From: an uncultured Bacteroides sp.
GTDB taxonomy: Bacteria > Bacteroidota > Bacteroidia > Bacteroidales > Bacteroidaceae
Direction of reading: 5' to 3'
Assembly: GCA_947074205.1 (NCBI GenBank)
Contig: CAMTOQ010000001.1
Location: 62,001-126,000, forward strand
DNA: 64,000 bases
Below the pieces are notes generated by a model. That model worked only from the letters and a program-made list of their open reading frames with translations. It was not told the DNA's origin and ran no database searches. Made by a program: the position numbers and the translations under genes. Position 1 is the first letter of the stretch; each line of letters begins with the position of its first letter. This document shows positions 1,880 to 39,678 of this stretch, one piece after another.

Positions 1880-1945
1880 GACAAGGGCTACTCACCGTGG
1901 TGACTAGCCCTTGCCAGCACGGTGAGTAGCCCTTGCCACCAAACC
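1880..1945. repeat. 22-nt tandem repeat array, copy A (3 units)
   Basis: Three consecutive 22-nt units lie between the propeller lipoprotein and the btuB-like gene. The third begins GAGTAGCCCTTGCCACC and the second GACTAGCCCTTGCCAGC. The first carries the same core inverted (CAAGGGCTACTCACC), so units 1 and 2 form an almost perfect 15-bp inverted repeat around a 2-nt centre, with one mismatch. About 49 bp of this copy matches copy B near 11.2 kb with two differences. A 22-nt period is not a multiple of three, and the region is intergenic, so it is non-coding. If transcribed it could fold between the two cistrons. Confidence 0.8.
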
Positions 1946-1967: not shown

Positions 1968-3893
1968 ATGGCGCGTTTCCGTATATATTTTCTACTATTA
2001 TCCACAATTGCTATCAATATAGCAGCACAAAACAGCACTACCAATCGTTCGGTAAACCTAGACGAAGTAAACGTCACCGCCAAGAAAAAACAAGCCGAAG
2101 CAGCTATAGGCGCCAAAGTCACTGAAATCACACAAGAAGATATCAAGACCAATCTCACCAAGAGTCTATCAGAGATACTTTGGGAAAGTAGCCCCATACA
2201 AATCAAAAGCATGGGACAGGGCGCCATGGCTACAGCCTCGTTTCGTGGCACCGCCTCCTCGCACACGCAGGTGACATGGAATGGCATCTCCATCAACTCC
2301 ACACAGCTAGGCAGTTTCGACCTCTCCATGGTTCCCATCTATTTTGTAGATAACATCAGCCTTTATCATGGCGGTAGCGCTCAAAAAGGAGGCAGTGGAG
2401 CACTAGGTGGTAGTATCAACTTTGGGAATGAGCTCAACTTTGGCAATAAGCCCAGCGGATCATTGCTCTTCGAAGCGGGTAGCAACGACACCTACACAGG
2501 TGCCGGCAGCTTGCAGGTCTCTAAGAAGCGTTTTACATCGAGCACAAAGTTCTTCTATCAACAGTCGGACAACGACTATAAGTATCTCAATACTGTTTAC
2601 CAAAAAGATCCCTTCAAAGAGCGCCGCAAGAACGCGGACTATCGCCAGGCAGGAGTGCTGCAAGGGTTTGGATATCGACTAAAGAACAACGACATGCTAT
2701 CGGCTACTTGCTGGTGGCAATACGATAAGCGCTCGCTGCCCCAAGGCATCTATATAGACAATATCCCGGAAGAAAAGAATAAAACAAACAATGTGCGTAC
2801 CATGCTGAGCTATGATGGGCAACGCAGCAAATACGACTTTAATGCTACGCTAGCCTACTTTTATAGTGATATGCACTACAGCCGCTATTTCAGCCATCAA
2901 CTCACCAATGAGAGCACTAATATCAACAACAGTGTTGTAGCCAAAGGGGAGTTGAACTACACCGCCCTTAAAAAGATGATGCTAACGGGTATTCTATCCT
3001 ATAGAATGGATCAAGTGCGATCGGAAAACATAGAAGGGAAGACAAAGGTACGCAATACCGTGAATGCTACAGCTGTAGCGGCTTACCGCTTTACTCCTCG
3101 CCTACACGTGGACGCTAGAGTGCCCATTGAGTGGAGCGAAGAGAAACTATTTGCACGCTATAACCTCTCTGCCCGCTACAGGCTAATTGACGAATGGCTC
3201 ACACTGAAAGCCAGCAACGGATACAACTACCGCATCCCTACCCTCAACGATATGTATTGGCAGCCGGGTGGCAATCCCGACTTGAAGCCCGAAAAAGGTT
3301 TTTCGTCCGACATAAGCATTGCCACTCAACCCACTTTTGGCAACATCGGCCTACGCGTAGAGGCCACTTACTTCTATATGAATATCGACGATTGGATTAT
3401 GTGGGTAGTAAAAGATAAAGGTCCTATCTGGGAGCCAGTCAACTTCAACAATGTGATATCGCAAGGATTGGAGGTCAATGCAGACCTTCGACTACAATGG
3501 GGGAAAACTTCCCATACCCTATCGGGCAACTATGCTTACACTAGCTCTGTGGACAACAGCTATCGCGAGGAGGGGACACAAGGAAAGCAGCTCCCCTATA
3601 TCCCTCGAAACAGATGGACAGCTGGATACCGGTTTAATTTCGACGACATCTTCTGGCTGCACTACAATATAGGATATACCGATGCACGTTTCACTAGCGC
3701 CGACGAAGCCTATCAGACCGAAGCCTATACTTTGCACAATGCCGAAGCAGGTTATCGACTAAAACTGAAGGGAGAAATGAATCTAGACTTTACCCTTAAG
3801 GTAGACAATATATTCAATGCCTATCACGAAAGCACACAGTATTATCCCATGCCGCTGCGCATGTTTTGGGGAAGAGTGATTTATTCATTCTAA
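1968..3893 (+). CDS. btuB: TonB-dependent outer-membrane receptor, BtuB-like
   Basis: A 641-residue TonB-dependent receptor. A signal peptide ends near NIAAQ. A TonB-box-like stretch (LDEVNVTAKK) follows at about residues 30-40. Next comes a plug domain with the usual FRGTASSHTQVTWNGI and GGSGALGGSINF motifs, then a C-terminal barrel ending in aromatic strand FWGRVIYSF. The short length, the plug motifs and the neighbouring DUF5074 propellers fit the cobalamin receptor BtuB of Bacteroidales. It would pull corrinoids across the outer membrane using TonB energy, with the propellers acting as surface binders. No cobalamin riboswitch is visible in the 95 bp upstream; if present it would precede the truncated first gene. 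Receptor family is secure; substrate is inferred. Confidence 0.82.
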   Translation: MARFRIYFLLLSTIAINIAAQNSTTNRSVNLDEVNVTAKKKQAEAAIGAKVTEITQEDIKTNLTKSLSEILWESSPIQIKSMGQGAMATASFRGTASSHTQVTWNGISINSTQLGSFDLSMVPIYFVDNISLYHGGSAQKGGSGALGGSINFGNELNFGNKPSGSLLFEAGSNDTYTGAGSLQVSKKRFTSSTKFFYQQSDNDYKYLNTVYQKDPFKERRKNADYRQAGVLQGFGYRLKNNDMLSATCWWQYDKRSLPQGIYIDNIPEEKNKTNNVRTMLSYDGQRSKYDFNATLAYFYSDMHYSRYFSHQLTNESTNINNSVVAKGELNYTALKKMMLTGILSYRMDQVRSENIEGKTKVRNTVNATAVAAYRFTPRLHVDARVPIEWSEEKLFARYNLSARYRLIDEWLTLKASNGYNYRIPTLNDMYWQPGGNPDLKPEKGFSSDISIATQPTFGNIGLRVEATYFYMNIDDWIMWVVKDKGPIWEPVNFNNVISQGLEVNADLRLQWGKTSHTLSGNYAYTSSVDNSYREEGTQGKQLPYIPRNRWTAGYRFNFDDIFWLHYNIGYTDARFTSADEAYQTEAYTLHNAEAGYRLKLKGEMNLDFTLKVDNIFNAYHESTQYYPMPLRMFWGRVIYSF

Positions 3894-11045: not shown

Positions 11046-11117
11046 GGCCTTGTAGTTCAACGGATAGAATAGAAGTTTCCTAAACTTTAGATAGGGGTTC
11101 GATTCCCCTCGGGGCTA
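11046..11117 (+). tRNA. tRNA-Arg (anticodon CCT)
   Basis: All arms can be drawn. The acceptor GGCCTTG pairs with CGGGGCT (four Watson-Crick pairs and three G-T wobbles). U8-A9 is followed by D-stem GTTC/GAAT. The anticodon stem GAAGT/ACTTT has loop TTCCTAA, giving anticodon CCT for the AGG codon. The variable loop is 4 nt. The T-arm is AGGGG-TTCGATT-CCCCT and the discriminator base is A. The genome continues CTA instead of CCA, so the CCA tail must be added by nucleotidyltransferase. The gene has its own promoter and terminator. Confidence 0.95.
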
Positions 11118-11128
11118 CTAAAGCAAGA

Positions 11129-11158
11129 AGTCTGCTTACTTTTAAGCAGGCTTTTTTT
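11129..11158 (+). terminator. Intrinsic terminator of tRNA-Arg
   Basis: Stem AGTCTGCTTA/TAAGCAGGCT with a 4-nt loop followed by seven T residues, 11 bp after the tRNA. Confidence 0.9.
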
Positions 11159-11180
11159 GTACACCCATACTCCGTTTGGT

Positions 11181-11268
11181 AGCCAGCCGTGGTCACCAAC
11201 CTAGCAAGCCCTTGCCACCGTGGTGAGTAGCCCTTGCCAGCACGGTGAGTAGCCCTTGCTACCAGCCC
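11181..11268. repeat. 22-nt tandem repeat array, copy B (4 units)
   Basis: Four uninterrupted 22-nt units between the tRNA-Arg terminator and miaB. Units 3 and 4 share GAGTAGCCCTTGC; unit 2 is AGCAAGCCCTTGCCACC; unit 1 is the most diverged (AGCCAGCCGTGGTCACC). A stretch of about 49 bp across units 2-4 is nearly identical to copy A. There are no spacers between the units, so this is not a CRISPR. Confidence 0.8.
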
Positions 11269-11298
11269 ATATATAAACAGCTGATTATCAGATACAGA

Positions 11299-29567: not shown

Positions 29568-29899
29568 CTAGCCGACCACAATGGCCAAGCTTCTTTCTTT
29601 GTCCTAATGAAGCATTTGGTGAGGTATTTGCGCACCGTAATATCGTAGAGTCGGAGGTAGAGATAAGGATAGTGTACCATTTAGAACGGATAAGATATAT
29701 CGCCTAAACATGATAGCGACTACACCGCGCAGTCCATCGAGTACGTTGTAGTGGGGATTGGTATTGGGAAACACCAAATGAACATATCAATATTTTTCCA
29801 AACCCACTAGAAAGTTGCACCACCTCACTCCCCCATATCACAAAGAGGTAAAGAGGGTTCCATCGGCACCTGTAACCATCTATAAATCTGTAATTTGCA
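29568..29899. other. Intergenic region without a recognisable gene
   Basis: About 330 bp between the operon terminator and repeat copy C. The 67-aa ORF-track entry that enters it (29504-29707) reads through the terminator hairpin and looks spurious. I see no promoter or RNA gene. Confidence 0.6.
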
Positions 29900-30009
29900 A
29901 AAGAGCTTTACTCAACATATTGAGTAGCCCTACTCACCGCACTGAATAGCCCTACTCACCGAGGTAGCAAGGGCTAGCCACCAAGCAGAGTAGCCCTAGT
30001 CAGCAAATC
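29900..30009. repeat. 22-nt tandem repeat array, copy C (5 diverged units)
   Basis: Four clear 22-nt units from 29922, preceded by a degenerate one. They start GAGTAGCCCTACTCACC, GAATAGCCCTACTCACC, AGCAAGGGCTAGCCACC and GAGTAGCCCTAGTCAGC. The period and the TAGCCCT core match copies A and B, but the second half often reads TACTCACC in place of TTGCCACC. The third unit carries the core inverted (AAGGGCT), as in copy A. Intergenic and non-coding. Confidence 0.75.
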
Positions 30010-30019
30010 GAATAAAAAA

Positions 30020-30057
30020 GCGTGCCATTCTGAGTATCTCTATTCAGAATGGCACGC
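30020..30057 (-). terminator. Terminator of pepP
   Basis: Perfect 14-bp stem GCGTGCCATTCTGA/TCAGAATGGCACGC with 10-nt loop. On the minus strand it is followed by a T-run. Confidence 0.88.
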
Positions 30058-38820: not shown

Positions 38821-39678
38821 ATGGCATTGGAAGACAAAATAGTCAAGGGCTTGACAGATATGTGGCAAACGCTACTCAGCGTGGTGAAGATAGTTCTCCA
38901 ATCTAAAGGCAAGAGCTCACTACCAACCACGTTCAGCAACCCTGACGAACTGCTTATTTTGGCCAACGGCCCTTCGCTCAACGAGACAGTGACTCAGCAC
39001 CCCGAGTTTGTACGCAGCAAGACCTTGTTGGCGGTGAACTTTGCGGTGAATTCACCTATGTTCGAGGAGCTAAAACCCGAAATCTACTTGATAGCCGACC
39101 CCTTGTTTTGGATTGTGCCCGAGAAGCGCGAACAGCTATTTGGTACGATGGCTCAGAAGACCACTTGGCCAATGAACTTCTTTGTACCTGCCCGTGCACT
39201 GAAAGATAAAGAGTGGAAACCGTTGATAGCCGGCAATCCCAACATACATCTGTACATCTACAACACCACTCCCATCGAAGGATATCAGGGCTTCTGCGAC
39301 CGCGTGTTCCGCTCGGGGTTGGGCGTACCTCGCCCACACAATGTGCTAATACCCTCTATCGCTGTGGGACTGCGTATGCCGTTCAAGAAGATCTATCTGG
39401 CCGGAGCCGACCACTCGTGGTTACCCGAGATCAGCGTTACCGATGACAATGTAGTGTTGATGCACCAGAAGCATTTCTATGACCAGAACCAGTCGAAAGC
39501 CGCTACAGTGAGTCAAGAGAACTTGAAGAGCGCACGCCTCTACACCATATTGCACCATATGTCGGTAGCTTTTAAATCGTACTTCGTGCTGGAAGCTTTT
39601 GCCGAGAAGATGCACAAAGAGGTGATCAACATCACCCCCAACTCCTATATCGACGCGTTTAAACGTTTGAAATTATGA
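38821..39678 (+). CDS. DUF115/MptE-like protein, putative nonulosonate transferase
   Basis: 285 residues, no signal peptide. The segment ELLILANGPSLNETV (~residue 40) matches the NGPSL loop shared by DUF115/Maf flagellar glycosyltransferases and GT42 sialyltransferases. KKIYLAGADHSWLPE (~residue 185) is the second conserved patch. DUF115 members are often auto-annotated 6-hydroxymethylpterin diphosphokinase-like, which the context does not support. Its stop overlaps the start of the cytidylyltransferase (ATGA), so it belongs to the operon making a CMP-nonulosonic acid. I infer that it transfers that sugar to a surface acceptor. Function is unproven. Confidence 0.7.
   Translation: MALEDKIVKGLTDMWQTLLSVVKIVLQSKGKSSLPTTFSNPDELLILANGPSLNETVTQHPEFVRSKTLLAVNFAVNSPMFEELKPEIYLIADPLFWIVPEKREQLFGTMAQKTTWPMNFFVPARALKDKEWKPLIAGNPNIHLYIYNTTPIEGYQGFCDRVFRSGLGVPRPHNVLIPSIAVGLRMPFKKIYLAGADHSWLPEISVTDDNVVLMHQKHFYDQNQSKAATVSQENLKSARLYTILHHMSVAFKSYFVLEAFAEKMHKEVINITPNSYIDAFKRLKL

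Follow-up and report, generated by a model that had tools for sequence, protein, structure and literature searches.

Dispersed intergenic arrays of pseudo-palindromic 22-bp units in Bacteroides, with a conserved layout and species-specific words

Three short tandem arrays in a 64,000-nucleotide stretch of DNA from an uncultured Bacteroides sp. (the window, analyzed at its full length) belong to a large family of intergenic arrays, typically of four dyad units at an exact 22-bp step, whose words are used about equally on both strands and whose layout recurs, with other words, in congeneric species. In the best reading, to which we give an even chance, these are old dispersed elements of a MITE- or REP-like type that work at the level of DNA, with sites for binding dimers lined up along a single helical face and read by a protein whose existence we infer.

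Array A (1877-1940) consists of three 20-bp units (1877-1896, 1899-1918, and 1921-1940); its position in the earlier note, 1880-1945, was nearly right. It lies 4 bp past an open reading frame (ORF 799-1872) and 27 bp ahead of the ATG of a TonB-dependent receptor gene (ORF 1968-3893). The right flank (1941-1967) begins AAACCACCC and matches the family end pattern, with the ATG following at 1968, and the fourth unit and left arm that would be expected are missing, cut off where the ORF upstream ends (stop at 1872); with its three units adjoining a stop codon, array A looks like a truncated copy. Array B (11178-11263; units starting at 11178, 11200, 11222, and 11244) has a tRNA-Arg on one side and, on the other, a MiaB-type radical SAM gene whose 3' end faces it; its left arm (11147-11177) terminates in CTCCGTTT, with family conservation reaching to about position -31, and its right arm (11264-11294) matches the family arm weakly. 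Array C (29919-30004; units starting at 29919, 29941, 29963, and 29985) sits in the gap ahead of an M24 peptidase gene that reads toward it, with a left arm (29888-29918), a right arm (30005-30035) that starts AAATCG, and a near-symmetric first unit, GAGTA-GCCC-TACTC. The exact 22-nt step, close to two helical turns, holds for all three arrays, and the mixed orientation of units described in the earlier note is confirmed, as is the stretch of 48 to 49 bp with two differences common to A and B. Allowing up to three mismatches, the 14-nt core TAGCCCTTGCCACC has 15 matches in the window against 3.8 expected, a count reached by no shuffle, and a genome-trained scoring matrix yields 12 strong matches, 11 of them within A, B, and C, with none in the shuffle. 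A lone weak unit at 38861-38880, TGTGGCAAACGCTACTCAGC, lies within an ORF and is probably a chance match.

The window's own genome (G000; 3.3 Mb, 89% complete) contains 53 occurrences of the exact 12-mer TAGCCCTTGCCA, and none when it is read backwards. With the scoring matrix, followed by a sequence-only profile derived from 36 ungapped four-unit copies, we found at least 78 intergenic arrays, with exactly four units in 72 of the 78 and a 22-bp step in all that were fitted. The earlier note had proposed a three-site family, open to the objection that no further copies might exist genome-wide; a family it is, but because at least 78 arrays exist the objection falls away and three is an undercount. 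Even 78 is a lower bound, since a spot check of 400 kb turned up six arrays, and one of these (C9, near 68.5 kb) is absent from the list. The arrays are non-coding, as had been claimed, with only 2 of the 78 overlapping a called (putative) ORF; 41 lie between tandem genes, 21 between convergent genes, and 14 between divergent genes. We found no recurrent gene family beside them (the largest group accounts for 3 of 78 loci), and no two listed arrays share a contig at a distance short enough to bracket a transposase gene. A second family of 22-bp arrays, of the GTGCATAGGGCTATTGACTTTA type, is represented in the same genome at L479:19417.

The likeness of A and B had been taken as a sign of recent spread or gene conversion, a view that the wider family does not bear out: among the first 38 arrays no pair of four-unit copies exceeds 85% identity, and two units from one array resemble each other no more than units from different arrays do (14.18 versus 14.07 of 20 positions; z 1.1). 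Nor does array C stand apart as a diverged copy, as it falls within the normal variation of the family.

Each unit comprises 20 bp and a 2-bp linker, which together give the 22-bp step, and follows the consensus GSTR RSWA NNNN TWSY YASC, formed by two inverted half-sites, TRRNNA-N4-TNNYYA. The inner words are drawn from small sets (AGT, GCA, ACC, and GAT), as do the centers (GCCC, GCTG, GCCT, CGCC, and their reverse complements) and the linkers; GAGTAG is present in only some words. Strong covariation between letters is confined to units and their junctions, with none detected between units. Self-complementary centers are strongly depleted (10 of 288, with 86 expected) and matching inner words are too (39 seen, 71 expected), and because both are avoided the units are best described as asymmetric pseudo-palindromes.

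Of 121 genomes of the genus searched with the profile, 38 (G000 among them) carry the family; G093 has at least about 75 arrays, and G176 and G004 have many. Dialects with other words and the same layout are present in G093, G131, G004, G176, G121, G077, and others, in which the units retain T-R-R-N-N-A-N4-T-N-N-Y-Y-A, the 22-bp step, and usually the number of four, and the words differ (for example GTTGGGAAAGGTTACCCAAC in G121 and GGTGGATAAGGTAACCCACC in G077). A dialect-free three-unit pattern is matched in 52 of 160 genus genomes (about a third), including 107 matches in G093 and 65 in G000; in an order-wide sample it occurs in 7 of 344 genomes, two of them (G000 and G034) in the genus, and G362, from outside it, has five matches in a TGGCAA dialect. 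Several dialects may coexist in one genome, as in G112, which has TGAGAA, TATATA, and TGGTAA. Patterns read backwards were intended as controls for the dialect-free scan but can themselves catch other array families, because G035 gives 24 matches to the backward pattern, which represent another family of 22-bp arrays with AYYNNT half-sites. Bacteroides finegoldii carries a TGAGAA-type copy between trkH and an SGNH hydrolase gene, and a search of plasmids and phages with a G112-type copy returned one Bacteroides finegoldii record and no phage. Matches to array B on a Streptomyces plasmid coincide with an annotated coding gene, and we regard them as chance; a 15-mer scan of named genomes gave 110 stretches among the matches listed, which we attribute to chance because each has a single match with no second array core nearby.

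Some orthologous positions are occupied in different species by arrays whose words have changed. Both G000 (array B) and G093 carry an array about 100 bp downstream of miaB, as does, in degenerate form, the closest congener G176, and two more gaps hold arrays in both G000 and a relative (L305/L219 and L313/L037); such shared positions could in part be insertion hot spots. In four other genomes (G112, G012, G009, and G068) arrays lie about 1.1 kb downstream of miaB beside a small basic ORF (loci L280, L279, L287, and L284), each periodic at about 22 bp and with differing sequences at the one gap. Comparison with empty sites found loci that were either both occupied or too diverged to align, and between G067 and G144 a locus that is 92% identical differs in length by exactly 44 bp, or two units.

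Four orthologous pairs of TGAGAA-type copies allow rates of change to be compared, with changes at 3 of 144 half-site positions, 4 of 48 center positions, 19 of 48 linker positions, and 60 of 351 flank positions (Fisher tests: half-site versus flank, p 5e-7; linker versus flank, p 7e-4). Because both members of each pair matched the search pattern, the search itself partly selected the fixed half-site letters; with only the free NN positions of the half-sites considered, and 3 of 48 taken as the bound, the difference from linkers persists (19 of 48; p 2e-4), and that from the flanks is marginal (p 0.06). In these alignments of close species pairs, the half-sites are conserved and the linkers diverge faster than the flanks.

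Half-sites that alternate at about 11 bp and are conserved above the linkers fit a row of DNA-binding dimers. Each array is the core of a non-coding interspersed element of about 148 bp. Its four 20-bp pseudo-palindromes give eight inverted TRRNNA half-sites that recur every 11 bp or so along one helix face, and a degenerate inverted arm of about 31 bp lies on either side. The units would be filled side by side by dimers of a protein that binds DNA sequence-specifically, forming a cooperative nucleoprotein row. The elements would once have dispersed as MITE- or REP-like DNA and would now be kept mainly by descent, with half-sites that may have tracked the changing specificity of the binder to give one dialect per species; nucleoid or topological functions and local insulation are possible host roles. 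Several points speak against this reading, among them the lack of a recurrent neighbor gene and the search-pattern and hot-spot caveats given above. The word-like coupling within units (AGT versus GCA, with few intermediates) is unlike simple site-by-site selection, and the multitude of unrelated motifs that G125 and G178 each carry (see below) would need many binders.

A first alternative is a plain MITE, whose 22-bp units are transposase binding sites, whose arms are its ends, and whose copies do nothing for the host. Left ends and reversed right ends do fall into one common pattern extending about 31 bp outward, in which many positions carry 0.1 to 1.1 bits against a background of 0.02, with an end consensus of CSGTTT at -6 to -1 (CSGTTT.../...AAACSG) and weak arm conservation out to -31. 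As the end pattern reaches about 31 bp on each side, the element measures about 148 bp with degenerate inverted arms, and the generic MITE trait of terminal inverted repeats is therefore present, though degenerate. Short internal tandem units also resemble those of BrickBuilt (see below), and three G112 loci (L366, L368, and L369) have 156 to 190 bp beyond the array in common at 84 to 91% identity. The arms, the interspersed intergenic copies, and these larger common segments make dispersal by ancient transposition likely. A plain MITE is nonetheless a rather doubtful account of the whole, given that we found no enzyme for it, that no convincing target-site duplication emerged from 800 tests of offset and length (best z 3.6; old copies could have lost theirs), that no recurrent gene adjoins the arrays and no compared G000 pair exceeds 85% identity, and that half-sites change less than flanks between species and some orthologous positions are kept.

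A second alternative is that the arrays act in RNA, as tandem hairpins that terminate transcription or stabilize mRNA at gene ends. Array A folds strongly (-41 kcal/mol; z -7.4), with unit 1 pairing with unit 3 in the best fold; units 1 and 2, cited in the earlier note as an inverted repeat, do pair, with one mismatch. There is also some bias toward gene 3' ends (90 versus 42 facing ends, in line with the excess of convergent over divergent gaps). However, real arrays fold no better than unit-shuffled arrays assembled across loci, on either strand, a null that rules out a whole-element RNA structure, and the depletion of self-complementary inner words and centers, the lack of strong covariation between units, and the strand-symmetric use of words all run counter to selected hairpins. 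No array matches Rfam, the only match being a tRNA at 11046-11117. RNA folding is not what selection keeps, and we consider an RNA element improbable.

Equally improbable, in our estimation, is that the arrays are of the REP/REPIN type and serve a Y1 (RAYT) transposase as substrates; this reading takes in the tnpAREP subclass 2.6 of Bacteroidetes, which is on record with "atypical" flanking structures (PMC6006769). Species-specific families coexist in one genome, as REPs do, and three Y1 loci (L390, L391, and L393) have 22-bp arrays no more than 1.5 kb away. Against this, there is no PF01797 gene in G000 (89% complete) and none among the matches listed for the array-rich genomes G093, G034, G103, G067, and G112, no TRRNNA arrays lie near Y1 genes, and a density of about 10 arrays per 100 kb predicts roughly as many Y1 neighbors by chance; a RAYT is unlikely for these reasons. 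Among congeners, Y1 genes within about 1.5 kb of arrays have either 22-bp (L390, L391, and L393) or 20-bp (L389 and L392) periods nearby, which is probably expected from density. Local minisatellites, with in-place slippage and a 22-bp mutational bias, could draw on the two-unit difference between G067 and G144 and on the many unrelated motifs of G125 and G178, but are disfavored for G000, and highly improbable overall, given units no more alike within arrays than between them, four units in 72 of 78 arrays, and a genome-wide dialect with conserved ends.

The layout appears to extend beyond the TRRNNA pattern. A motif-free scan, which seeks the period alone and ignores sequence, gave, for the congeners G125 and G178, some 10 tandem arrays per 100 kb; among these 85 arrays, 64 have a period of 22 and 8 a period of 23, and lags of 22 to 23 account for 35 of 45 arrays in G125 and 37 of 40 in G178. 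Named loci totaling 831 kb, for the most part from other bacteria, gave 22 arrays, none of them of period 22. A looser scan gave 41 arrays per 400 kb in each of the two genomes, or by extrapolation about 300 per genome, and arrays lying mostly in ORFs number 0 of 41 in G125 and 6 of 41 in G178, where ORFs make up 85 to 88% of the sequence. G125 by itself holds some two dozen dyad motifs that are unrelated to one another. Inspection of loci L404-L423 (G125) and L424-L443 (G178) shows dozens of unrelated 22-bp dyad motifs (e.g., GGACC-N7-GGTCC, GTTTGCAAC, and TCTAAGCCTTAGAG), each in a few to many arrays, many of which have about four units. In G149, which is without the TRRNNA pattern, 400 kb contain five arrays of period 22 and two of period 23, and in the sampled sister genus G415 a period of 21 is favored. 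Period-21 arrays with a common TCTCCAGCCTAAAGAT-type unit were seen at L465-L472 (G415) and at L077 (Bacteroides muris).

The main novelty is this conservation of a two-turn period with free sequence. We tentatively propose, with somewhat less than even confidence, that Bacteroides genomes carry an undescribed class of about 80 to 330 intergenic two-turn dyad arrays each, in which the geometry (21 to 23 bp, about four units) would be kept and the sequence rewritten in each species, each family being read by a fast-evolving DNA-binding protein, and of which BrickBuilt would be a distant member. Usual repeat searches miss such arrays because sequence varies by array and by species and only the period is kept. 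The intergenic DNA of this major gut genus appears to hold hundreds of regularly phased putative protein-site arrays per genome, which open a directly testable route to a new protein of the nucleoid or of transposition and provide an example of sites and protein coevolving across more than 100 sequenced species.

As interspersed non-coding repeats the arrays are of a known kind, and the question of what protein reads them is testable. ERIC and similar fixed-length repeats are intergenic, about 100 to 150 bp long, vertically retained, and of imperfect dyad symmetry; they share length, setting, and symmetry with the present element, but lack its 22-bp internal period and species dialects. Tn7-type ends carry several 22-bp TnsB sites at the end of the element that are not inverted half-site dyads, whereas the units here are dyads with no recurrent transposition gene. 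REP/BIME sequences and REPINs with their RAYTs (PMC3733652, PMC3116915) are likewise short, palindromic, intergenic, and of high copy number, with alternating orientation and species-specific families. They differ in that G000 has no detected Y1/RAYT gene and its family has an exact 22-bp lattice, asymmetric units that avoid perfect palindromes, and no GTAG/CGTC tag by a stable 20- to 40-bp hairpin. The near-palindromic PM2 promoter motif of B. thetaiotaomicron, with -10/-30 boxes, is not described as a 22-bp array (PMC7366714). The openly searchable literature yielded no published description of two-turn dyad arrays or of this dispersed family, in agreement with the earlier note. The closest known system in form is the BrickBuilt MITE of Porphyromonas gingivalis, which has 23-nt direct repeats in 1 to 23 copies over 84 to 991 nt, a leader and tail, and IS5-like ends, GAGACCTTTGCA, in 19 genomic copies, and is named alongside MITE464/PgRS with its 41-nt repeats (PMC4596501). 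Both BrickBuilt and the present arrays are intergenic elements of the Bacteroidales with tandem units of about two turns and no spacers, flanking sequences with inverted ends (a leader and tail there, arms in G000), and species-limited sequence. The arrays of G000 differ in having 22-nt units of alternating orientation rather than 23-nt direct repeats, CSGTTT.../...AAACSG rather than IS5-like ends, and, in place of 1 to 23 units in 19 copies, four units in 72 of 78 arrays, at least 78 copies, and dialects across a genus.
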